DNA of 64,000 nt from the NCBI RefSeq assembly GCF_003071365.1, contig NZ_CP028960.1:1116001-1180000 (forward strand), written 5' to 3'. Below are positions 1,748 to 44,387 of the stretch, in pieces (positions within the stretch are counted from its first letter, which is position 1; the number at the start of each line of letters is the position of its first letter). Origin of the DNA: Methyloceanibacter sp. wino2 (GTDB lineage: Bacteria; Pseudomonadota; Alphaproteobacteria; Rhizobiales; Methyloligellaceae). The notes under the pieces are model-generated. The model saw nothing but the letters and a program-made list of their open reading frames with translations, was not told where the DNA came from and ran no database searches. Both the position numbers and the translations under genes were made by a program.

Positions 1748-2527
1748 ATACGCTGCGTAGCACAGGGTGATCGCGAGCAGCGGCCGGAGCAGCCAGTCCG
1801 GTGCGACACCCGCGAGGCGCGTGCCGAGCAAGATGCCTGGGATCGACCCGACCAGCAGCGCTGCCAAAATCCCGAAATCTACATGACCCAGTCCAAGGTG
1901 GCCTGCACCGGCCACCAGTGTCAGCGGCACCGCATGAGCAATGTCCGATCCGACAATGCGTTTGGCCGGCAGCGCCGGGAACAGCAGCGCGAGCACGACC
2001 ACGCCAATGGCGCCGGCGCCGACCGACGTGAGCGTAACCAGCAGTCCGAGGGCGGCGCCGAACAGCACCGTAAGGGCGGCGTGCTGGGGCGGTCCTTCCG
2101 GGTCTTTGCCGTTCGCATGCGACTTCATCATGATCGGATAGAGCACAATCGCCACCGCGCTGACGGGAAGCGCGAAGGCAAGGCCGTAGCGGATCCACCC
2201 CGCCATCGCTTCGGTGTCCAATGGAACGTAGGCGATGATGGCCAACAGTATGATCGACGCCGGCAGCGAACCCATCGCGAGCCGCAGCACGATCGGCCAG
2301 TCGACATTCTCCTGCACGTGGTGCCGCCAGCCGCCGACCGTTTTGGTCACCGACGCGTAGAGGAGGTCCGTACCCACCGCGACGGAGGGCGGAACGCCGA
2401 AACTCGAAATAAGCAGCGGCGTCATCAATGCGCCGCCGCCAACGCCTGTCAGTCCCACCAAGAAGCCGACACCGAATCCGGCACCAGCGAGGGGCAGCAG
2501 GGCAATGACCCCGCTGAGATCAATCAT
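1730..2527 (-). CDS. TauE/SafE family sulfite/anion exporter
   Basis: A 265-residue membrane protein with about eight hydrophobic segments. The family pattern GAGFGVGFLVGLTGVGGGALMTP near residues 15-35 is repeated in the second half (LLVTLTSVGAGAIGVV), as expected of the internally duplicated TauE/SafE (DUF81) fold. Members are proposed to export sulfite or sulfonate-related anions. It starts 61 bases after cysN on the same strand, with GGGGGAGG upstream of the ATG at 2527, so it is probably the last gene of the sulfate-assimilation operon and could vent surplus sulfite. Substrate is inferred from context. Confidence 0.85.
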   Translation of the reverse strand: MIDLSGVIALLPLAGAGFGVGFLVGLTGVGGGALMTPLLISSFGVPPSVAVGTDLLYASVTKTVGGWRHHVQENVDWPIVLRLAMGSLPASIILLAIIAYVPLDTEAMAGWIRYGLAFALPVSAVAIVLYPIMMKSHANGKDPEGPPQHAALTVLFGAALGLLVTLTSVGAGAIGVVVLALLFPALPAKRIVGSDIAHAVPLTLVAGAGHLGLGHVDFGILAALLVGSIPGILLGTRLAGVAPDWLLRPLLAITLCYAAYALLTK

Positions 2528-2588
2528 CTATGAGGGCCTCCCCCGACTTATCCAGCACGATCAGGACCGAGACGGATCCAACGTCTTT

Positions 2589-4073
2589 TTAGCGATCCGT
2601 CTCAATCAGCACCGGAACGCCGGCCGACCGTAACAGAATTGCCACCTCTTGGGCACGTCGATCGTATTCGGCCCTGTCCTCCGGAGAATCGCCAAGGTCC
2701 GCGCATAAGCCAGACAGCCGGGCTCGGTCAAGCACCAGTACGTTGTCCCCAACGGCCGCCGCACCAGTTTGTACCCATGTGATCACGCCGCCTGCGACGG
2801 TGGCGCCGTCCAGTGCGTTGACCAGGACGAAGTTGCCGGTCAGCGGAAGATCGCCGAAGAGGTCCAATGCCGTCGACCGCCCGAGGAGAATGCGGCAGTC
2901 GGCGATGTCGTTCATGCTGCAGGTATGGGCCTGCGCCGAGGAAAGCGTCTCGAAATCGATCAGTGTAGAGACGCTCACGGATGTGACAGGCGTCAGATCG
3001 GTTGCCGTGCGCAACAGGTAACCCGCTTCCGGATCGAACGGCTTCTCGGACAGCCACACGAGGCGCGCCTCGATGACATCGGCGTTGGTGGGGCGCCGCT
3101 GCGTTTCCGTCAGTACGGCACCACGCGAAATGTCGAGATCGGTGTCGAGCACGAGCGTGACGGCATCACCGCTCGACGCACTCTCGAGATCGCCGTCCAT
3201 AGTCGAGATGCGCTGCAACGTCGCACCAAGTCCGCTGCGCGCATCCACGATGCGATCGCCGACGCGGATCGTACCCGACGTCACTGTGCCAGCGTAGCCA
3301 CGAAAGTCGTTCGCCGCCCGCAAGACCATCTGCACCGGCATGCGGAACGGCGCATCTTCGGGCTGGGTTCTGGCTTCAACGCTCTCGAGATATTCCAATA
3401 GCGTCGGGCCGTCGTACCACGGCATCTCTTCGGATCGGGCAACGACATTCGCGCCTGTCAGCGCCGCAACGGGAATCGAGGTAACGTCCGTAAAGCTGAA
3501 ATTGCCCCCAAGGGAGCGGAAGTCTTCTTCGATCGCGCGATAGCGCTCTTCGGACCAATCGATCTGATCCATCTTGTTGACGGCGAGAATGACCTTCTTG
3601 ATGCCAACGAGATTGCAGATCGCCGCGTGCCGCCGCGTCTGGCGCTTCACGCCGTGGCGCGCATCGACCAGCAGGATGGCGACATCCGCATGCGAGGCAC
3701 CGGTCGCCATGTTGCGGGTGTATTGCTCGTGTCCGGGCGAGTCGATGATCACGAAGCGGCGGCGCTCGGTCTCGAAATAGCGCCAGGCAATGTCGATCGT
3801 GATGCCCTGCTCGCGTTCGGCCACGAGTCCGTCGAGCAGAAGCGAAAAGTCGATGCGTTCCCCGTTGACGGCACGGGCGTGCGAGGCATGCATGATCTGC
3901 GCGCGCTGATCGTCAGTCACGCCGGCGGCATCCCACAAGAGACGGCCGATCAGGGTCGACTTGCCGTCGTCCACGGAGCCGCAGGTGAGGAGCCGCAACA
4001 TGGCCTCCGACTTGTCGCCGGGCTGAAGGACCGGCTGCGCGGCTTCTGTTTCGGAGAGCGCTGCCAAGCTCAT
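2589..4073 (-). CDS. cysN: sulfate adenylyltransferase large (GTPase) subunit CysN
   Basis: A 494-residue EF-Tu-like GTPase that couples GTP hydrolysis to ATP sulfurylase: sulfate + ATP to APS + PPi. Visible are the P-loop GSVDDGKS (residues 32-39), the DSPGHEQY switch II and NKMD base-recognition motifs, then beta-barrel domains. The length fits CysN alone; there is no C-terminal APS kinase (CysC) domain, which agrees with the downstream use of an APS reductase. The ATG overlaps the cysD stop by one base (TAATG), so the two subunits of the heterodimer are translationally coupled. Confidence 0.95.
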   Translation of the reverse strand: MSLAALSETEAAQPVLQPGDKSEAMLRLLTCGSVDDGKSTLIGRLLWDAAGVTDDQRAQIMHASHARAVNGERIDFSLLLDGLVAEREQGITIDIAWRYFETERRRFVIIDSPGHEQYTRNMATGASHADVAILLVDARHGVKRQTRRHAAICNLVGIKKVILAVNKMDQIDWSEERYRAIEEDFRSLGGNFSFTDVTSIPVAALTGANVVARSEEMPWYDGPTLLEYLESVEARTQPEDAPFRMPVQMVLRAANDFRGYAGTVTSGTIRVGDRIVDARSGLGATLQRISTMDGDLESASSGDAVTLVLDTDLDISRGAVLTETQRRPTNADVIEARLVWLSEKPFDPEAGYLLRTATDLTPVTSVSVSTLIDFETLSSAQAHTCSMNDIADCRILLGRSTALDLFGDLPLTGNFVLVNALDGATVAGGVITWVQTGAAAVGDNVLVLDRARLSGLCADLGDSPEDRAEYDRRAQEVAILLRSAGVPVLIETDR

Positions 4074-4978
4074 TAGAAGTACCCCTCGCGCTTCTTCATC
4101 TCCATCGCCCCGGCCTCGTCATGGTCGATCAAGCGCCCGGCCCGCTCCGACACACGCGCGTCCAAGGTCTCGGTCACAACCGCTTCCAGATCCGTCGCTT
4201 CGGACTCGATGGCGGCGGTGAGCGGGTAGCACCCAAGCGTGCGGAAGCGGATCCTGCGCATCACCGCCTCTTCACCCGGCTGAAGCCGCATGCGCTCGTC
4301 GTCGACCATCAGGATCTGCCCGTCGCGTTCGACCGTCGGGCGCTCCTTCGCGAAATAGAGCGGCACGACGTCGAGCTTCTCGAGCGTGATGTAGCGCCAC
4401 ACGTCCGCCTCGGTCCAATTCGACAGCGGAAAGACCCGCACGGTTTCGTCCTTGCCGAGACGGCCGTTCAGCAGCTGCCACATCTCGGGCCGTTGCAGAC
4501 GCGGATCCCAGCTATGGCCGCCGGCGCGAAACGAGAACACGCGTTCCTTGGCCCGTGACGCTTCTTCGTCGCGGCGCGCGCCGCCGAACGCGGCATCGTA
4601 GCCGCCATTGTCGAGCGCCTGGCGCAGCGCCTGGGTCTTCATGATGTCCGTATAGACAGACGGCGGATAATCGAACGGGTTGATGTTCTTCGCCGCTCCG
4701 TCGTGATTGGTGTGCACGATCAGATCGAGCCCCATCTCCGTGACAGTCCGGTCGCGAAACGCGATCATGTCACGGAACTTCCACGTCGTATCCACATGAA
4801 GCAGCGGGAACGGCGGCTTGGCTGGCCAGAACGCCTTCCGCGCCAAATGCAGCAGAACCGTCGAGTCCTTTCCGATCGAATACAGCAGCACCGGCGCGCG
4901 GAACTGCGCCGCGGCCTCGCGGAAGATGTGGATGCTCTCGGCTTCGAGAAGCTTGAGGTGTGATGTCAGCGCGGTCAT
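4073..4978 (-). CDS. cysD: sulfate adenylyltransferase small subunit CysD
   Basis: A 301-residue catalytic subunit of ATP sulfurylase. The PP-loop SIGKDS is at residues 34-39, followed by the CysD-typical stretches [30 protein letters not shown] and [12 protein letters not shown]. The usual length is about 302. The frame is open further upstream, but the start at 4978 ([12 protein letters not shown]) matches the family N-terminus and overlaps the cysH stop (ATGA). It acts with CysN, encoded immediately downstream. Confidence 0.95.
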
Positions 4979-6129
4979 GCGGCCTTCTCCCGGTGTGCGA
5001 CTGGCACCGCCGAACATTCGGATTCGGCCACATGCAGCCCGCATTCCTTCTTGTCTTCGGTCTCCCACCACCAGCGTCCCGCGCGCGGGTCCTCGCCCGG
5101 CTGGATCGCGCGCGTGCACGGTGCGCAGCCGATCGAGACGAAGCCTTGCGCATGCAGCGGATTGACCACGACATTGTTGGCATCGATGTAGTCGTTGAGG
5201 CGTTTGTCGGACCAGTCGGCAATCGGGTTGATCTTGATCAGCCCGCGCTCTGCGTCCCATTCGGCCAGCGGTACGTCCGCGCGCGCCTGCGACTGCTCGC
5301 GCCGCAGACCGGCGATCCATCCTTGCGCGCCCTGCAGGGCCCGGTTCAGGGGACGGACCTTGCGCACCTCGCAGCAGCTCTTCCGGTTCTCGACGGATTG
5401 GCGGAAACCATACACGCCGTCGCGGGACACAAGCTCTTCAACTTCGCGGGCATCGGGCGCAACGAGCCGAATGCGCGTACGATAACGCAACTCGGATAGT
5501 TCGATCGTTTCCAGGACTTCCGGGAACAGCCGGCCGGTGTCGAGCGTAAAAACATCGATCTCGGCGCCCGACTTTGCCACGCCCGATTTGGCGATGGCCT
5601 GCAGGATCACCTGATCCTCCAGACCGACGCTCGTCGAGAACGCGATGCGGCCTTCGATGTGTTCGGCGATCAGCTTGATGCGCTCCACGAGATCGTCCGT
5701 CGCAGCCAGTGCCCGATCGAGTTCGGCCGCGGCCTTGGCGGATGCGTTCCAGCGCAGCGGCATCGGGTTGCGCGCCGAGGGCTGATAGTTGCGGCCGATT
5801 CGCGTCAGCGTCTTCTTCCACGTATCCGCCGCACCGGGATCGGCAATCTCGGCCGTATCGAATCCGGACCGCAGCAGAAACTGCGACTGATCCGGAATCA
5901 GCGATCCGACCGCGCGAATTTCTCCGGTGAACCCGAGCCGATCACGAAGGATGCGAGCCAAGCTGAATCCACGTCCGTCCGCGAAGCTCGGGAACATGAT
6001 CGCGATCGGCCCTGCGTTGCCGCCAATTGCGGAAGCCAGCGCGTCGTGATCCGCGTTCGGCTCCAGGACGACCGCCGGCTCGTCGGGTTCCGAAATCAGC
6101 GCTCCCGTCGACAAATCAACGAGCACCAT
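4975..6129 (-). CDS. cysH: DUF934 domain fused to APS reductase CysH
   Basis: One continuous 384-residue frame. Residues 1 to about 119 are DUF934 ([35 protein letters not shown]), normally a separate small protein between cysI and cysH. Residues 123-384 are CysH, the phosphoadenylyl/adenylyl-sulfate reductase: [10 protein letters not shown] near 164-173, the CC pair at 252-253, CxxC at 335/338 and the catalytic KKECGLH cysteine at 363. The CC and CxxC pairs are those that bind a [4Fe-4S] cluster in APS reductases, so APS is the likely substrate. The ATG at 6129 has AAGGAGG 6 bases upstream. No Shine-Dalgarno precedes the internal Met123, so a true fusion is likely. Confidence 0.85.
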
Positions 6130-7770
6130 AGAGAGCCTCCTTGAACGGCGCAGCACCGACGCGGCGCCAGGTCTCGAGGAAGCTCTCTCCCTCGTTCCGG
6201 TTTTCGACATAGGTCTCGACAATCGTATCGATTGCTTCCGGCACCTTCTCGGCGCGGAAGCCGGGCCGATAATGGTGCCCACCGCGGCGTCATCCTTCGG
6301 GCTGCCGCCAAGGGTGATCTGATAAAGCTCCGTACCCTTCTTATCGACACCGAGAATGCCGATATTGCCGGCGTGGTGATGGCCGCAGGCATTGATACAG
6401 CCGGACATGTTGACCCGGATCTTGCCGATCTCGTCCTGCCGCGTAGGATCCTCGAACTTCTTGGCGATCTCCTTGGCGATGGGGATCGACCGCGCGTTCG
6501 CAAGGTTGCAGTAATCCAGACCCGGGCAGCAGATCATGTCGCCGAGCAACTCGTTGTTGCCGACCGCGAGCCCCGCTTCCGCAAGCGCGTCATAGAGCGC
6601 GGGGATGTCCGCCAGCGCCACATGCGGCAGAACCAGGTTCTGGGTGTAGTTGACCCGGATCTCATCATGGCCGAAACGCTCGGCGAGATCGGCCACCATA
6701 TCCATCGTGTCGGATGAGGCATCGCCCGGCGTCCGGCCCGGCTCCTTCAGCGAGATCACGGCGGAGGCATAGCCCGGCACCCGATGGGGCAGCACGTTGT
6801 TGCGGTACCAGGTCGCGAAGGCCGGATCGCTCTCGCGGCGCGCGGCAAGGGCCTCGTCGCGCGGAGCGCGTTCAGGCAGATCGGGCGGCGCGAAATAGGA
6901 CGCGATGCGGCGGAGCTCGTCTTCGGGAAGATCGATCTCACCCTTGGCCGTCGCATTCCAATCGTCTTCGACTGCTTCCCGAAACTTCTCGATCCCGAGC
7001 GTGTTCACGAGGATCTTGATGCGCGCCTTGTACAGATTGTCCCGGCGTCCGAGCAGATTGTATACGCGCAGGATCGACTCCACGTAGGAGAGCAGATGCT
7101 CCTTCGGCAGGAACTCGCGGATCACCTGACCCACATAGGGCGTACGTCCCATGCCGCCGCCGACGAGGACGCGGAAGCCATTCTCGCCGTTCGGGCCACG
7201 CACGATGCGCAGACCGATATCGTGAAACGCCGTGGCCGCGCGGTCCTCCGCGGCGCCGGAAACGGCGATCTTGAACTTGCGCGGCAGCCAATTGAACTCC
7301 GGATGCAGCGTCGACCACTGGCGCAGGATCTCGCACCAGACGCGCGGGTCTTCCAGCTCATCGTTCGCGGCCGCCGCGTACGGGTCCGACGTGACGTTGC
7401 GCACGCAATTGCCGCTTGTCTGAATGCAGTGCATCTCGACTTCGGCCAGCGCGGCCAGCACGTCGGGCACGTCCACCAGCTTGATCCAGTTGAACTGGAT
7501 GTTCTGGCGCGTCGTGAAGTGACCGTAGCCGCGATCCCACTTCCGGCCGATCATCGCGAGCTGCCGCATCTGGCGCGGCGACAGCTGGCCATAGGGGACC
7601 GCGATCCGCAGCATGTAGGCATGCAGCTGCAGATAGAGCCCGTTGCGCAGGCGCAAGGGACGGAACACTTCTTCGGAAAGTTCGCCGGTCAGCCGCCGCG
7701 CGACCTGGTCGCGGAATTCCGCAACGCGGTCGTTTACGAAGGCGTGATCGAATTCATCATAGCGGTACAT
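6116..7770 (-). CDS. cysI: siroheme sulfite reductase CysI, apparent frameshift near 3' end
   Basis: A sulfite reductase of the NirA/ferredoxin-dependent kind, reducing sulfite to sulfide. Siroheme/[4Fe-4S] cysteines are visible at C415, C421, C458 and C462 (CCPGLDYC; MSGCINAC). After residue 502 (GTIIG) the frame becomes implausible. One extra G/C in the run at 6263-6265 restores a family-like tail (PGFRAEKVPEAIDTI ... RRVGAAPFKEAL) ending at TGA 6116-6118, total about 551 residues. As read, the frame instead runs on through DUF934-CysH as a false 931-residue fusion. The start at 7770 overlaps the DUF2849 gene. Partner electron donor is probably the operon's ferredoxin. Confidence 0.88.
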
Positions 7771-39967: not shown

Positions 39968-40957
39968 ATGACAGACGCCACCCTCGTCAAACCAACACAA
40001 AAGTTCTCCGACCCGGACCTGACGGCCGACGGCAGCCGCCGCGCCCGGGTCCCGCTGACGCGACTGCGTACGCTGTGGATCAATACGGGCACGCTGTGCA
40101 ACATCGCCTGCCGCAACTGCTACATCGAATCGAGCCCGACCAACGACACCTTCGTCTATATCAGCCGGGCCGAGGCCGCCGCCTTCCTCGACGAGATCGC
40201 TGAAGACAGCTGGCCGGTGGGAGAGATCGGGTTCACCGGCGGCGAGCCCTTCATGAACCCGGACATGATCGGCATGATCGAGGACGCGCTCGATCGACAT
40301 TTATCCGTACTCGTCCTAACGAACGCCATGCAGCCGATGATGCGGCGCCCCGTGCGCGACGGCTTGCTGGCACTTCGGGAGGCCCACGGGGACCGGCTGA
40401 CACTGCGCGTTAGCCTCGATCACTACACGGCCGCGCGTCACGACGAAGAACGCGGCGCCGGCACGTTCGACAAGACGCTGGAAGGGATCGACTGGCTCGC
40501 GACGGAGGGCTTCTCGATCACGCTTGCCGGACGCACATGTTGGGGCGAATCCGAGCAAGCCGCCAGGGCGGGATATGCCGCGCTGATCGCTACCCGCTCC
40601 TGGCCCATCGCGGCCGAACGGCCGGATGCGCTCGCGCTGTTTCCGGAAATGGATGCGCAAGAAGATGTGCCGGAGATCACCGAGGGGTGCTGGGACATCC
40701 TGAATCTGTCGCCAACCAAAATGATGTGCGCGTCGAGCCGCATGGTCGCGAAACGGCGCGGCGACCGGGTCCCTGTCGTTCTCCCTTGCACGCTGCTCAC
40801 GGACCTTCCACGTTTTGGCATGGGGGCCACGCTCGCGCAGGCAGCAACGGCCGACGGCGATCTATTTGATCAGGGTACGGTTAAACTCTGCCACCCGCAT
40901 TGCGCGCGGTTCTGCGTCCTGGGTGGGGCTTCCTGCTCGGCAGCCCCCCTTGAATAG
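39968..40957 (+). CDS. radical SAM protein
   Basis: A 329-residue radical SAM enzyme: the cluster motif CNIACRNC (C-x3-C-x2-C), then a GGEPFMN stretch that helps bind SAM, and a C-terminal cysteine group (CHPHCARFCVLGGASC) that may hold an auxiliary cluster. N-terminal part TDATLVKPTQKFSDPDL is an extra lead. The substrate is unknown. It stands alone on the plus strand; no partner gene is adjacent besides the XRE regulator after 145 bp. Confidence 0.85.
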   Translation: MTDATLVKPTQKFSDPDLTADGSRRARVPLTRLRTLWINTGTLCNIACRNCYIESSPTNDTFVYISRAEAAAFLDEIAEDSWPVGEIGFTGGEPFMNPDMIGMIEDALDRHLSVLVLTNAMQPMMRRPVRDGLLALREAHGDRLTLRVSLDHYTAARHDEERGAGTFDKTLEGIDWLATEGFSITLAGRTCWGESEQAARAGYAALIATRSWPIAAERPDALALFPEMDAQEDVPEITEGCWDILNLSPTKMMCASSRMVAKRRGDRVPVVLPCTLLTDLPRFGMGATLAQAATADGDLFDQGTVKLCHPHCARFCVLGGASCSAAPLE

Positions 40958-41037: not shown

Positions 41038-41102
41038 ACTATTGCAACCGAGAGAAACAACTGTAATTGGTTGTCGACACTCAGCGCATCACAGGAGCGA
41101 AT

Positions 41103-41498
41103 ATGGGAAAGAAGTCGCCGCAACAGACAGATGTGGTAGTTGGACACAACATCCGTTTTTGGCGGTTGGAACGGAAGATGTCGCAGACCGATCTGGCCAA
41201 CCTGCTTGGTCTGACCTTCCAGCAGATTCAAAAGTACGAAAATGGCGCGAATCGCGTGGGCGCAAGCCGGCTCATGCAGATCGCCACCGCTCTCGATGTG
41301 CCAATCCACGCCTTCTTCGACGGCGCCGGCCCGCAGACAGACGAGACGGAATCGCCCATCAAGTTCGTCGGGGATCAGCAAGCTCTGCGCCTTGTCCGCG
41401 CGTTTGCCGATATCGACGACGCGGGGCTGCGCCGCTCGGTCGTGAACCTCGTCGAAGGCATCGCGGGCAGCCAGCCCGAAGAGAACGGCGCGAAGTAG
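41103..41498 (+). CDS. XRE family transcriptional regulator
   Basis: A 131-residue DNA-binding protein with an N-terminal helix-turn-helix (FWRLERKMSQTDLANLLGLTFQQIQKYENGANRV, read as the usual XRE fold) and a short acidic C-terminal tail. ATG 41103 has GGAG upstream. It is convergent to the phyH-linked 100-aa gene and shares an 11-bp leader motif with the luxI-like gene. It belongs to a common rhizobial XRE type; targets are unknown. Confidence 0.85.
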   Translation: MGKKSPQQTDVVVGHNIRFWRLERKMSQTDLANLLGLTFQQIQKYENGANRVGASRLMQIATALDVPIHAFFDGAGPQTDETESPIKFVGDQQALRLVRAFADIDDAGLRRSVVNLVEGIAGSQPEENGAK

Positions 41499-41510: not shown

Positions 41511-41813
41511 TCAATGCGCCTTCGAGGACGGAGGCGCTTCCTCGGCGGCGTCTATGTCCTCCCTGTCGACGCTGTCAGAGATGACCTTGCTCAGTTCAGC
41601 TTCCGCCAGTTTCAAATAGTGCACGAAATTGTGCTGCCGGTGCTGCAGGCCCTCGATAATGGCGTAGTCGAGCAGCAGGAGCAGGGTCCGAGACCATTGT
41701 GGAAAATTCACGGTGGGATCGGGATCGGCGATTTCGTCGATCCCACCGTCTGTCGCCTCGACGGACTCGCTCTCAAGCGATGGCCAGCCGGCACCGGGAG
41801 GACGGCGCCTCAC
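41511..41813 (-). CDS. hypothetical protein coupled to the phyH-like gene
   Basis: A 100-residue protein with an acidic start (SLESESVEATDGGIDEIADPDPTV), a central helix containing RTLLLLLDYAIIEGLQHRQ and an acidic C-terminus (VDREDIDAAEEAPPSS). GTG 41813 overlaps the stop of the phytanoyl-CoA-dioxygenase-like gene (GTGA, 41810-41813), so it is translated after it. No family recognised. It may be a partner of the enzyme or of the AHL circuit; this is inference from coupling. A start further in is not ruled out. Confidence 0.55.
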   Translation of the reverse strand: MRRRPPGAGWPSLESESVEATDGGIDEIADPDPTVNFPQWSRTLLLLLDYAIIEGLQHRQHNFVHYLKLAEAELSKVISDSVDREDIDAAEEAPPSSKAH

Positions 41814-42838
41814 GCCGCTTTACTCCCGGTCAGTTGACCCAAGGCCGTTCCGGGCGCCGCGCTTGCGGCTACCGCATCACTCGGGGCCCTCTCCCAGACG
41901 ACAGGGAAGTCCGCGCCGCTTAGCGGATCACCGGTGTTGAGCCGGCCCGTGTGATGCAATTGCGCCGGCGCCCAGGGCCGTTCCTTGAAACGGATGTCGT
42001 CACCGCAATAGCGGATCGAGGCGGCGCGGCGCACCTGGTAACGGCTCTGGTTTCCACCCGTGCCGTGGATCGTCCTGTAGTGATGGACCAGGACATCGCC
42101 CGGCTCGACGTCGAAGTGAACGATGTCGTAGTCGTCCAGATTGTTCTCGATGTCCGGTAGATCCTCGCCCTCCGAACCCGGCAACGGGGCCTGCGAGATA
42201 AAGACATTGGGCTTGTAGAGCGTGCCGTCGCGGTGCGACCCGCGCACATACATCATGGCGCCGGTCTCCAAGGTCACCGGATCGGCGGGGACCCACATGA
42301 CGCAGCATTGCTCGCCTTCGATCTCGAAATAAGTCGCATCTTGATGGAAGGCAGTTTTGCCGGGCGTGTTGGGCTCCTTGACGAAAACCTGGTCGCCGAA
42401 GAAGCGGACCGTGCCCGATTGCAGCAACTCTCCAGCAATCTCCGGCAGCGCGCCGTGCGTGCAAAGCTGGCGATAGCTGTCGAGCCGCGCAGCCACGCCG
42501 GTATCGATGAAGTACGCCCCCTGGCGCGCCTCGGAACCCTCGTCGGCCAGGAGCGGTTTCCCGGTCGACTTGACGTAGTCCATGATCGCCTCGAGGTCGT
42601 ACTGACCATCGCTCATGGCGCGAAGCTGGTCGACGTCGTTCTCGGCGGTCGCCTTCAGGACCTTGGTGAAGTCGTAGCCGCTCGGGCTGTCGTCGAGCTT
42701 GTTCACGGTGAGGTCGATGGACCGCCTCAAGCTATTGACCGACTCGAGGCTGAGAATGCCCTTGAGCAGGACCACCCCGGCCTGCCTGTAGGCGGCAATT
42801 TCGTCTTGCGTAACCGCTCGTGTGATGTGGTGTGACAT
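41810..42838 (-). CDS. phytanoyl-CoA dioxygenase (PhyH) family oxygenase
   Basis: A 342-residue Fe(II)/2-oxoglutarate oxygenase. The metal ligands are His165 and Asp167 (AFHQDATYF) and a distal His near 258 (HYRTIHGTGGN), with a downstream Arg set (QSRYQVRRAAS) for 2-oxoglutarate. The cupin-type double-strand core (PGDVLVHHYR) is present. PhyH enzymes hydroxylate fatty acyl groups or small metabolites. It lies 27 bases after the luxI-like gene, with a GAGGGAG ribosome site, so it is probably in the same operon and may act on the acyl chain of the signal. Confidence 0.85.
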   Translation of the reverse strand: MSHHITRAVTQDEIAAYRQAGVVLLKGILSLESVNSLRRSIDLTVNKLDDSPSGYDFTKVLKATAENDVDQLRAMSDGQYDLEAIMDYVKSTGKPLLADEGSEARQGAYFIDTGVAARLDSYRQLCTHGALPEIAGELLQSGTVRFFGDQVFVKEPNTPGKTAFHQDATYFEIEGEQCCVMWVPADPVTLETGAMMYVRGSHRDGTLYKPNVFISQAPLPGSEGEDLPDIENNLDDYDIVHFDVEPGDVLVHHYRTIHGTGGNQSRYQVRRAASIRYCGDDIRFKERPWAPAQLHHTGRLNTGDPLSGADFPVVWERAPSDAVAASAAPGTALGQLTGSKAA

Positions 42839-42865
42839 CTGATCAACTCCCTCTCAAGAACTGCG

Positions 42866-43534
42866 CTAAGCAACGTCTCTGAACTGCGGAGCAGCATTCG
42901 GATAAGCGAAAGCTTCCGGCGCCGGCGAGTATTCCAGCGCGCCGTAGCTCCGGATTTCGGTGATGGCGCGCTCGGTGACGGGCAGCCGGATGGCCATGCA
43001 GGTGCCCCCGCCAGGTACCCCCTTGCCGCCGCCATAGGGGTGCGCGGATCCGAGTGCGAAGGTCTGCGAGTTGACCTTCTTGAAGCTTCTCAGAAGAGGC
43101 GCATCGATGACCGTTTGGATATGCCGGATGCCGTAGCTCCAAGCCCATTCGGTCATGGCACCGAGGATGCGGGCCTTCACGACCCGATTGCTCTCGGCCG
43201 TCTTCTCCCGCGGCGATGCGATATAGCGTGTCCCCTCGTACACGAACGGATCGCGCAAGGCGGTACCGCCGTCGGATAGGTGCGGGTAGTAGTCTGCCGT
43301 GAGCGATGCGACGGTCGTGGGCGTCAGACGAACCGCGCCCTGCAAATGTCCTACTTCGTCGATATCTACGAAGTACACCGCCTGGTCGGTATCGTACTGG
43401 TCGATCTCGAGCCCGTTCCTGGCGGGCAGCGACCAGCGGCGATTGACCACGAATGTTTCGTACCGTGCGCGGAAAAGCGTCTCGAACAGGCCAGCGTGGT
43501 GCGCCCTGTCCTTACCCTCAATGACTTGGACCAT
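42866..43534 (-). CDS. luxI: LuxI-family acyl-homoserine lactone synthase
   Basis: A 222-residue AHL synthase, which joins S-adenosylmethionine and an acyl group into a homoserine lactone signal. LuxI's invariant residues are present: R24, F28, W34, E43, D45, D48 (EIDQYD), R69 (VRLTPT), E100 and R103 (EGTRY). The acyl group (straight-chain, branched or aromatic) cannot be read from the sequence. The start ATG 43534 has a six-G Shine-Dalgarno, which lies inside a leader hairpin. It is 109 bases downstream of the luxR-like gene, same strand. Confidence 0.92.
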   Translation of the reverse strand: MVQVIEGKDRAHHAGLFETLFRARYETFVVNRRWSLPARNGLEIDQYDTDQAVYFVDIDEVGHLQGAVRLTPTTVASLTADYYPHLSDGGTALRDPFVYEGTRYIASPREKTAESNRVVKARILGAMTEWAWSYGIRHIQTVIDAPLLRSFKKVNSQTFALGSAHPYGGGKGVPGGGTCMAIRLPVTERAITEIRSYGALEYSPAPEAFAYPNAAPQFRDVA

Positions 43535-43541
43535 CGTTAAG

Positions 43542-43564
43542 CCCCCCGATTGGAATCGCGGGGG
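43542..43564 (-). promoter_or_regulatory. RBS-sequestering hairpin ahead of luxI
   Basis: On the mRNA strand, CCCCC(G)CGAT pairs with ATCGGGGGG: nine base pairs with one bulged G and a TCCA loop. The 3' arm is the luxI Shine-Dalgarno (six G), 7 bases before the ATG. It would lower translation unless opened. Seen directly in the sequence; regulatory role inferred. Confidence 0.55.
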
Positions 43565-43573
43565 CAATCAGGC

Positions 43574-43584
43574 CCTAAAGACGT
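43574..43584 (-). promoter_or_regulatory. 11-bp motif shared with XRE leader
   Basis: ACGTCTTTAGG on the luxI sense strand, 40-50 bases ahead of the luxI start, followed by ATTGC after five bases. The same 11-mer lies in the XRE gene's leader (41027-41037) in the same relative orientation. Confidence 0.4.
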
Positions 43585-43609
43585 GGGTTCCGACTATCCT
43601 AGTTTCTTT

Positions 43610-43639
43610 GTATTGCCTGAATTTTTGTTGGTGATTCAA
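43610..43639 (-). promoter_or_regulatory. candidate luxI promoter
   Basis: On the minus strand TTGAAT (43639-43634), an 18-base spacer and CAATAC (43615-43610) resemble a weak sigma-70 promoter next to the luxR stop codon. A start near 43603 would give a leader of about 70 bases holding the shared motif and the hairpin. Confidence 0.25.
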
Positions 43640-43643
43640 CGCT

Positions 43644-44387
43644 CTACAGCGTGATTTCACCAAACCGGATGGCCTTTACGACGGCAAAAGTGCGTCGGAA
43701 GGCATCGAGCTTCCGTTTGGCACGCTCCACGTGCACGGTCACGGTGGCCGGCGAGATCGCCAGGATGGCGGCGATTTCCTGGTCGGATTTACCGGCGGCG
43801 ATCCAGCGCATCACCTCCTTCTCCCGGGGCGTCAGCGGTGTATGCGCTTCGCTCCCGCGCACCTGCTCCAGAAGGACGCGCTTGAGCGCCTGATGGCTGT
43901 AGAGCGAGATCAGTTCGACCGCGCGGCGCGCGTCCTGCGAGAGATCCGGGTTCCGGCCGCACGGGCTGAAGACGGACAGCGCTCCCGACAGGGTGACGAT
44001 CGGGATGATCAGCCCGTCATTGACGTCGAACTCCCGCGCCTCCTCGATAATGCGCTTGTCCGCCCGGTTGAGGTCCCGGCGCTCAACCACGTCGCTCCAC
44101 GAGAAGGGCCGCACCGAATCGCGCAACTCCGTGACCACGGGGTCGCGCAAGACGTAGTTCTTCTCTTCGTAGTGGTCGATGTAGTCCTGGGGCCGGGTGT
44201 TGAGATGCACGCCTTTCTTAAAAGGCTCGCCGGGGCCCGGCATGATGAAACTGGTGACGCAGGTGAAGCCGTACCAAGCCAGCTCCTCGGAGATCGCGGA
44301 ACAGATGGCGTCGTAGTCCTTCAGACCCTCGATCTTCTCGACGAAGTCGAGCGGCCGATGGGCGTATGGCGAAGGCGAACTCTCCAA
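43644..44387 (-). CDS. luxR: LuxR-family AHL-responsive regulator
   Basis: A protein of about 247 residues: an autoinducer-binding domain (residues 15-165: ISEELAWYGFTCVTSFIMPGPG, YVLRDPVVTELR with the conserved Asp-Pro, FSWSDV) and a C-terminal LuxR helix-turn-helix (TPLTPREKEVMRWIAAGKSDQEIAAILAIS, read in pieces). It is the likely receptor for the signal made by the adjacent synthase. The start is uncertain: TTG 44387 is used here, as a longer frame from TTG 44444 would run through an operator-like dyad. Both are TTG. Confidence 0.88.
   Translation of the reverse strand: MESSPSPYAHRPLDFVEKIEGLKDYDAICSAISEELAWYGFTCVTSFIMPGPGEPFKKGVHLNTRPQDYIDHYEEKNYVLRDPVVTELRDSVRPFSWSDVVERRDLNRADKRIIEEAREFDVNDGLIIPIVTLSGALSVFSPCGRNPDLSQDARRAVELISLYSHQALKRVLLEQVRGSEAHTPLTPREKEVMRWIAAGKSDQEIAAILAISPATVTVHVERAKRKLDAFRRTFAVVKAIRFGEITL

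Follow-up and report, generated by a model that had tools for sequence, protein, structure and literature searches.

A luxR-luxI-phyH unit in Methyloceanibacter as a candidate oxygenase-tailored acyl-homoserine lactone circuit

In a 64,000-nucleotide stretch of the Methyloceanibacter sp. wino2 genome (positions 1,116,001-1,180,000 of a single 3.21-Mb contig, hereafter the window), genes for a LuxR-type receptor, a LuxI-type acyl-homoserine lactone (AHL) synthase and a PhyH-family Fe(II)/2-oxoglutarate oxygenase lie side by side, and genome comparison indicates that luxR-luxI-phyH is the conserved unit. On balance, we favour the reading that this unit is a three-component AHL circuit in which PhyH would oxidise the signal or its acyl precursor. 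The initial annotation had proposed oxidation of the acyl chain, with a quorum-controlled metabolic gene as the alternative. Signal modification is favoured over the latter because a second PhyH subfamily and cytochrome P450s share the slot behind luxI, one P450 being fused to LuxI; the acyl chain itself, however, is not singled out against the head group or the precursor.

All genes of the block are encoded leftward on the minus strand, namely luxR (43644..44387, 247 aa), luxI (42866..43534, 222 aa, ATG start, catalytic residues intact), phyH (41810..42838, 342 aa) and a 100-aa open reading frame (ORF) with GTG start (41511..41813). The four-gene arrangement described initially was recovered in full, the first three genes being backed by Pfam, and measurement gave the same 27-bp gap between luxI and phyH as well as an overlap of 4 bp between the phyH stop and the GTG start of the next gene. 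The luxR start at TTG 44387 agrees with the 247-aa luxR frames of two relatives (G003, G010), while the open frame extends to TTG 44444. As the genome holds a single Autoind_synth gene and a single PhyH gene, which adjoin in an order kept in relatives, the pairing appears to go beyond chance.

The synthase matches Pfam Autoind_synth with 62.2 bits (cut-off 24), and a 14-row alignment of the window protein with 13 other LuxI sequences shows no variation at R24, F28, W34, E43, D45, D48, R69, E100 and R103. These residues bear out the invariant LuxI positions annotated earlier except for F82, the neighbourhood of which holds Tyr in the window protein and varies across the alignment. The best matches in the PDB, 6wns and RpaI (6wn0), suggested an enzyme of the acyl-coenzyme A (CoA)-using BjaI/RpaI subgroup. 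This assignment was rejected since the Trp-Trp "indole platform", given as the criterion for CoA-using LuxI proteins such as BjaI in an excerpt of PMC8188788, is absent: W142/W143 of BjaI align with P/L in the window protein (the RpaI pair falls beyond the printed alignment). The absence of the BjaI-type pair points to acyl carrier protein (ACP) as acyl donor, and the enzyme probably makes its AHL from S-adenosylmethionine and acyl-ACP. The oxygenase matches Pfam PhyH with 92.9 bits (cut-off 22), and its metal triad H165, D167 and H258, the HxD...H site annotated as intact, is invariant in a 10-row alignment, as is the 2-oxoglutarate-binding R270. Its nearest named relatives come from a Hyphomicrobiaceae metagenome-assembled genome (MAG; 86%), M. 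methanicus (86%) and a Methyloceanibacter MAG (82%). The N-terminal stretch of this PhyH subfamily, up to about residue 100, is left uncovered by most generic PhyH matches. Phytanoyl-CoA dioxygenase, with the solved structure 2a1x, gives a weak match (E 2e-4), and no substrate can be read from the family name.

Conservation of the unit was followed through samples of increasing breadth. Among 61 genomes of relatives including wino2 itself, 17 belong to the genus. Six of these, wino2 among them, have luxI, and each displays the up257-luxR-luxI-phyH-unk100 block; several of the genus members without luxI are incomplete genomes. Compared with three congeners, luxR, luxI and phyH are under clear purifying selection (pN/pS 0.07-0.22; phyH 0.11-0.17). 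In a sample of 297 genomes of the order, the profile of the window PhyH subfamily retrieved 11 genomes with at least 454 bits, the next best match reaching 179 bits; these carriers are the six genus genomes (family f1) together with G040, G469 and G504 (family f12), G656 (f215) and G511 (f22), and every one of the 11 has luxR-luxI-phyH. In a sample of 385 genomes of the class, scores above 500 bits were obtained only for wino2 and for G186 from another order (f159), both with the gene beside luxI; G198 harbours two full-length distant PhyH copies (227 and 221 bits) away from luxI and gave no LuxI match. Hence, retention of phyH beside this luxI type in relatives, the check named in the initial annotation, was found in the 11 order-sample carriers and in G186. 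Altogether, the subfamily stands directly behind luxI in 12 of the 12 genomes found to carry it, from five families and two orders, so that a third enzyme gene is conserved beside luxR-luxI across genera. The LuxI proteins paired with it form one clade, with support of 100/100 in one tree and 100/99 in a 74-row tree of a thinned, hand-chosen set of luxI rows; one member, L079 (G021), ends at a contig edge, past which the position expected for phyH would lie. Three PhyH matches on plasmids (L080, L081, L082; two Novosphingobium, one Burkholderia) had no luxI match within 6 kb.

A luxR-luxI-phyH order has previously been published for Sphingomonadaceae, as novR-novI-phyH in Novosphingobium and as "topology T" in Sphingobium (excerpts of PMC3704786, PMC4288048 and PMC5012321), with the PhyH reaction described in the PMC5012321 excerpt as yet to be characterised. 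These loci share gene order and direction with the window, luxI being followed by a PhyH-family oxygenase, whereas the sphingomonad-type phyH usually overlaps luxI by 4 bp instead of lying 27 bp away, and in several cases resides on plasmids beside gntR or virB genes. Of 70 matching records, 38 sphingomonad-type plasmid matches were listed (H91-H128) and ten were opened (L157, L161-L169; Sphingobium, Sphingopyxis, Novosphingobium, Blastomonas, Sphingomonas, Variovorax, Hydrogenophaga and Methylocystis); luxI or a piece of it lies upstream of phyH in all ten, L169 and L163 having identical luxI and phyH protein accessions. An IS3 element is inserted between the two genes in L168, and on the Methylocystis iwaonis plasmid (L161, 3678-4933) an IS21 element replaces the front of luxI, leaving a remnant of 88 aa with 32-49% identity to the LuxI C-terminus and an open phyH.

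The two luxI-linked PhyH groups are only distantly related. Sphingomonad-type and window PhyH share 25% identity over 110 aa and lie far apart in a 56-row PhyH tree, where joining them as one clade was rejected by the approximately unbiased (AU) test (p = 4e-52). This tree has long branches, excludes duplicates and rows below 60 bits or 150 aa, and holds few generic relatives of the window subfamily (L033/L071, L042, L048, L066, L072, L080). A hidden Markov model (HMM) of the window subfamily proved too narrow and gave no PhyH match in L083-L156, the 74 luxI regions of the class sample; an HMM seeded on the sphingomonad type detected phyH behind luxI in L103 and L136. The former (G064) is of the sphingomonad type; the latter (G151) adds another luxI-phyH pair, with a PhyH placed among other relatives in the tree, membership of the sphingomonad group not being rejected (p = 0.43). 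The corresponding LuxI groups are each well supported and are not sisters in the tree, but joining them was not rejected. A single origin of the pairing was rejected on the PhyH side only, and it follows from the separate subfamilies that a PhyH entered the position behind luxI on at least two occasions or that one PhyH was swapped for an unrelated one.

Cytochrome P450s occupy the same position in other circuits. When the ORF directly behind luxI was picked mechanically in the 74 class-sample regions, which gave one for 66 of 75 luxI rows, P450 was the commonest Pfam family (9/66; PhyH 2/66); eight of the nine were inspected singly, the ninth being probably L109, which is broken off by a contig end. 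A P450 HMM run over 104 luxI regions (L083-L156, L070, L002-L030) yielded 13 frames, all of them downstream on the same strand as luxI or fused to it and none elsewhere. The directly downstream genes are found in several LuxI clades (L017, L021, L012, L109, L084, L086, L088, L102, L115, L118, L134, L138), with L017 and L021 representing a luxI-P450 version in members of the window's own family; in L012 and L109, the P450 open frame shares more than 200 bases with luxI, and the downstream position is given by coordinates and strand. The remaining case is a 686-aa P450-LuxI fusion (L130:3324-5384, minus strand, in G208), in which Pfam places P450 at residues 30-457 and Autoind_synth at 481-628. 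The fusion recurs in G703 (L219; 96% identity), a genome of the same genus, so that 2 of 17 genomes of that family carry it, and hints that oxidation and AHL synthesis could belong to one pathway. Among class-sample luxI genes, 10 of 75 have a P450 directly behind or fused; with PhyH included (four cases: wino2, G186, G064 and G151), an oxygenase of either type holds this position at 14 of 77 luxI places, these being rows and not independent events. Compared with the window, these are circuits of other LuxI clades with another oxygenase type, a heme monooxygenase, in the same slot. Neither a P450-LuxI fusion nor a characterised LuxI-linked PhyH appeared among the papers listed in searches of open-licence literature.

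With respect to the receptor, the window protein is a LuxR-family member by its domains (Pfam Autoind_bind 90.8 bits, GerE 64.0 bits) with a changed residue 57. Of the six conserved LuxR positions W57, Y61, D70, P71, W85 and G113 (TraR numbering), five are canonical (Y61, D70, P71, W85, G113), and position 57 is Tyr instead of Trp. In solved LuxR proteins, Trp57 contacts the lactone carbonyl. In a 101-row alignment of the window LuxR with 100 sequences from luxI regions, Tyr57 is found in 13 of 13 rows of the window clade and Trp57 in 71 of 78 rows outside both PhyH groups (L016 repeats L079). Both W57 and Y61 are canonical in 57 of 63 rows without a linked oxygenase, in 11 of 14 P450-linked rows and in 4 of 24 PhyH-linked rows. 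The latter break down into 4/9 for the sphingomonad type, 0/1 for G151 and 0/14 for the window clade, in which one locus appears twice, as L016 and as L079. Sphingomonad-type rows keep W57 in 8 of 9 cases, whereas the window clade carries Tyr, and receptors of P450 circuits, in contrast to those of the window PhyH clade, are mostly canonical at both positions. This pattern is only suggestive, but would agree with PhyH circuits changing the signal close to its head group and P450 circuits changing it at more distant positions.

A candidate LuxR-binding site, AATACAAAGAAACTAGGATAG, lies on the minus strand at 43594..43614, between luxR and luxI at the position of a lux box, and is weak in the window's own copy. 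In some relatives, dyads with a 4-bp spacer occur between the two genes and end about 58-66 bp before the luxI ATG. Their arms differ from genome to genome yet pair with each other, as in CTATATGGG-N4-CCCATATAG (G010) and CCATATTGG-N4-CCAATATGG (G014), and a TCCTAG-N4-CTAGGA dyad is present in both G040 and G186. Dyads arose in mononucleotide shuffles with frequencies of 0.003 (G010), 0.001 (G014), 0.067 (G040), 0.055 (G186) and 0.305 (L064); in the window and G003, the best dyad of the region is a different one (0.031 and 0.046), and those of G504, G656 and G511 were recognised by eye only. Position and form of the dyads in relatives suggest autoregulation of luxI-phyH by LuxR.

According to the favoured reading, LuxI would make an acyl-homoserine lactone, and PhyH, with O2, Fe(II) and 2-oxoglutarate, would catalyse hydroxylation or another oxidation of this AHL or of the acyl thioester feeding LuxI. 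Oxidation would most likely take place near the head group, at the alpha-carbon, which is the canonical PhyH position. LuxR, with its head-group pocket altered by W57Y, would be tuned to the tailored signal and would activate luxI-phyH from the candidate site about 60 bp upstream. In this reading, transcription of the genes as one unit, the reaction and the site of oxidation, the binding of LuxR to the dyad and its preference for the product are inferred. A comparable circuit is that of Mesorhizobium japonicum, where a luxI-linked crotonase-family gene in the order R1-I1-crotonase is involved in making 2E,4E-C12:2-HSL (homoserine lactone), according to an excerpt of PMC10470506. Going by the same excerpt, luxR, luxI and the linked enzyme gene are kept together across genera there as in the window; the third gene, however, belongs to the crotonase superfamily and the LuxI clusters with CoA-type enzymes, whereas the window has a 2-oxoglutarate oxygenase and a LuxI without the CoA-type Trp pair. 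Furthermore, poly-hydroxylated AHLs have been reported from a Rhodobacteraceae strain, for which the authors suggest a P450 (excerpt of PMC5479921).

The closest solved structures to the window PhyH by sequence, MysH (9pze, E 5e-30) and SnoK (5epa, E 2e-15), are PhyH-family 2-oxoglutarate oxygenases acting on small molecules, which would fit phyH being the first target gene of the circuit, with a substrate from catabolism or secondary metabolism that has nothing to do with the signal. That phyH is under quorum control had already been put forward (Hao et al. 2010, as cited in PMC5012321, and PMC3704786). In contrast to MysH and SnoK, however, the window subfamily sits in an AHL operon, and crude gene calls at four loci outside the genus (L064, L070, L073, L079) gave neighbouring genes that mostly differ from those of the window, apart from a family, cl11, that recurs near L070, while luxR-luxI-phyH stays together in all 12 carriers. 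Since, in addition, this one slot is shared by two separate PhyH subfamilies and by P450s, we regard a purely metabolic role as unlikely.

The tight genetic coupling of luxI and phyH would equally suit signal turnover, with PhyH oxidising the AHL to lower its activity and, being expressed together with luxI, providing negative feedback in the manner of self-quenching or a reset. A P450 of Bacillus (Priestia) megaterium oxidises AHLs, which counts in favour of such a role. AHL chain oxidation by a P450 is likewise cited in the excerpt of PMC5479921. On the other hand, a quencher kept behind the synthase in several lineages seems, in our judgement, less natural than a tailoring step, the P450-LuxI fusion points to synthesis, and the receptors differ in PhyH circuits, so that turnover appears rather improbable. 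As a sub-version of tailoring, PhyH might act exclusively on the acyl-ACP or acyl-CoA pool and hand a hydroxyacyl donor to LuxI, in line with phytanoyl-CoA hydroxylase working on an acyl thioester, with a Streptomyces relative of the sphingomonad-type PhyH adjoining a phosphopantetheine-binding protein and with the ACP donor indicated for the window LuxI, but sphingomonad LuxI proteins use ordinary acyl donors without PhyH (excerpt of PMC5012321), and we consider this version very unlikely.

Several observations weigh against signal tailoring by PhyH. First of all, cloned novI alone in Agrobacterium led to C8, 3-OH-C8 and 3-OH-C10 HSL, with unsubstituted, 3-oxo and 3-hydroxy AHLs as standards (excerpt of PMC5012321); because novI alone yields AHLs, PhyH is not required for their synthesis in sphingomonads, the NovI enzymes lying outside the set placed in our LuxI trees. 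PhyH enzymes are, moreover, common and chemically versatile. As the union of the two LuxI groups was not rejected (AU p 0.469), one ancestral pairing followed by PhyH replacement is possible. L123, a member of the sphingomonad-type LuxI group, lacks PhyH in the region around it, and its luxI match contains a stop. On the receptor side, Tyr57 also occurs in two family members, L023 and L024, the latter without an oxygenase behind luxI in its region, and W57Y of the window clade may be a single event, the LuxR counts being rows. The left half of AATACAAAGAAACTAGGATAG is degenerate in the window; G004 and G005 have the same left half, and that of G003 is almost the same. A genome search with this site returned only itself within 3 mismatches; since the reversed control pattern also gave one match and the site is degenerate, the search says little about the width of the LuxR regulon. 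Finally, the P450 HMM was seeded on eight luxI-linked P450s.

Relative to the known luxR-luxI-phyH order of Sphingomonadaceae, what is new here is the occurrence of the window PhyH subfamily in this order in each of its 12 carriers, the separate PhyH subfamilies in one slot, the P450s directly behind luxI and the receptor departures at residues 57 and 61. As a tentative generalisation, which we hold with less confidence than the circuit itself, oxygenase-tailored AHL signalling might be widespread and repeatedly evolved in Alphaproteobacteria, with PhyH enzymes of at least two subfamilies and P450s as dedicated third components. The PhyH branch would then give head-proximal, e.g. 2-hydroxy, AHLs that are missed by targeted liquid chromatography-mass spectrometry panels for 3-oxo and 3-hydroxy AHLs, LuxR receptors would be co-adapted at positions 57 and 61, and the signal would require O2, iron and 2-oxoglutarate. 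Should this hold, a considerable fraction of the AHL circuits in Alphaproteobacteria (the 14 of 77 luxI places given above) would make oxidised signals which standard AHL panels may miss, and the product of LuxI could not be equated with the signal. A changed receptor pocket combined with a signal made only in the presence of oxygen, iron and 2-oxoglutarate would also make private channels possible. With a second, separate recruitment of PhyH, the question now has a sharp prediction.

Some further features of sphingomonad-type loci may be mentioned. On the Streptomyces plasmid L170, the gene of the sphingomonad-type PhyH relative (2199-3340) follows directly behind that of the phosphopantetheine-binding protein, which suggests that this PhyH branch might act on carrier-bound acyl chains. 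In L006 (G037), a gene of the sphingomonad PhyH branch (1871-2296, plus strand), detected as a fragment cut by the contig end, stands divergently next to luxR and not behind luxI. In the sphingomonad loci L164, L165 and L166, genes for a sigma factor, a FecR/DUF4880-type protein and a TonB-dependent receptor (about 4700-6800) come after luxR-luxI-phyH-gntR; in L167, lasso-peptide genes come next.

The 100-aa gene at the end of the block lacks Pfam and NCBIfam matches. Its place in the block, as first annotated, holds within the genus; no relatives outside Methyloceanibacter were found in the luxI/phyH regions compared, some of which end soon after phyH, no genome-wide search having been made. 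It evolves faster than luxR, luxI and phyH (pN/pS 0.26-0.38 against the three congeners) and is peripheral to the unit. On the opposite strand, the block is flanked by genes for a Cro/C1-type regulator (41067-41498, plus strand) and a radical-SAM protein (39968-40957, plus strand), both conserved beside it in the genus. Within the genus, a frame change divides the luxI gene of G004 (L025/L075), a very close relative (98% identity), with luxR, phyH and the 100-aa gene still open, which may reflect a sequencing or assembly error or a strain no longer making the signal. In G014, the luxR and luxI frames are both interrupted, for which sequencing error and decay are both possible. Additionally, a GC-rich inverted repeat, CCCGCGATTCCAATCGGGGG, is located at 43543-43562 (minus strand), 8 bp 5' of the luxI ATG, where it overlaps the likely ribosome-binding site; it is partly conserved in the genus and could act as a gate on luxI translation.

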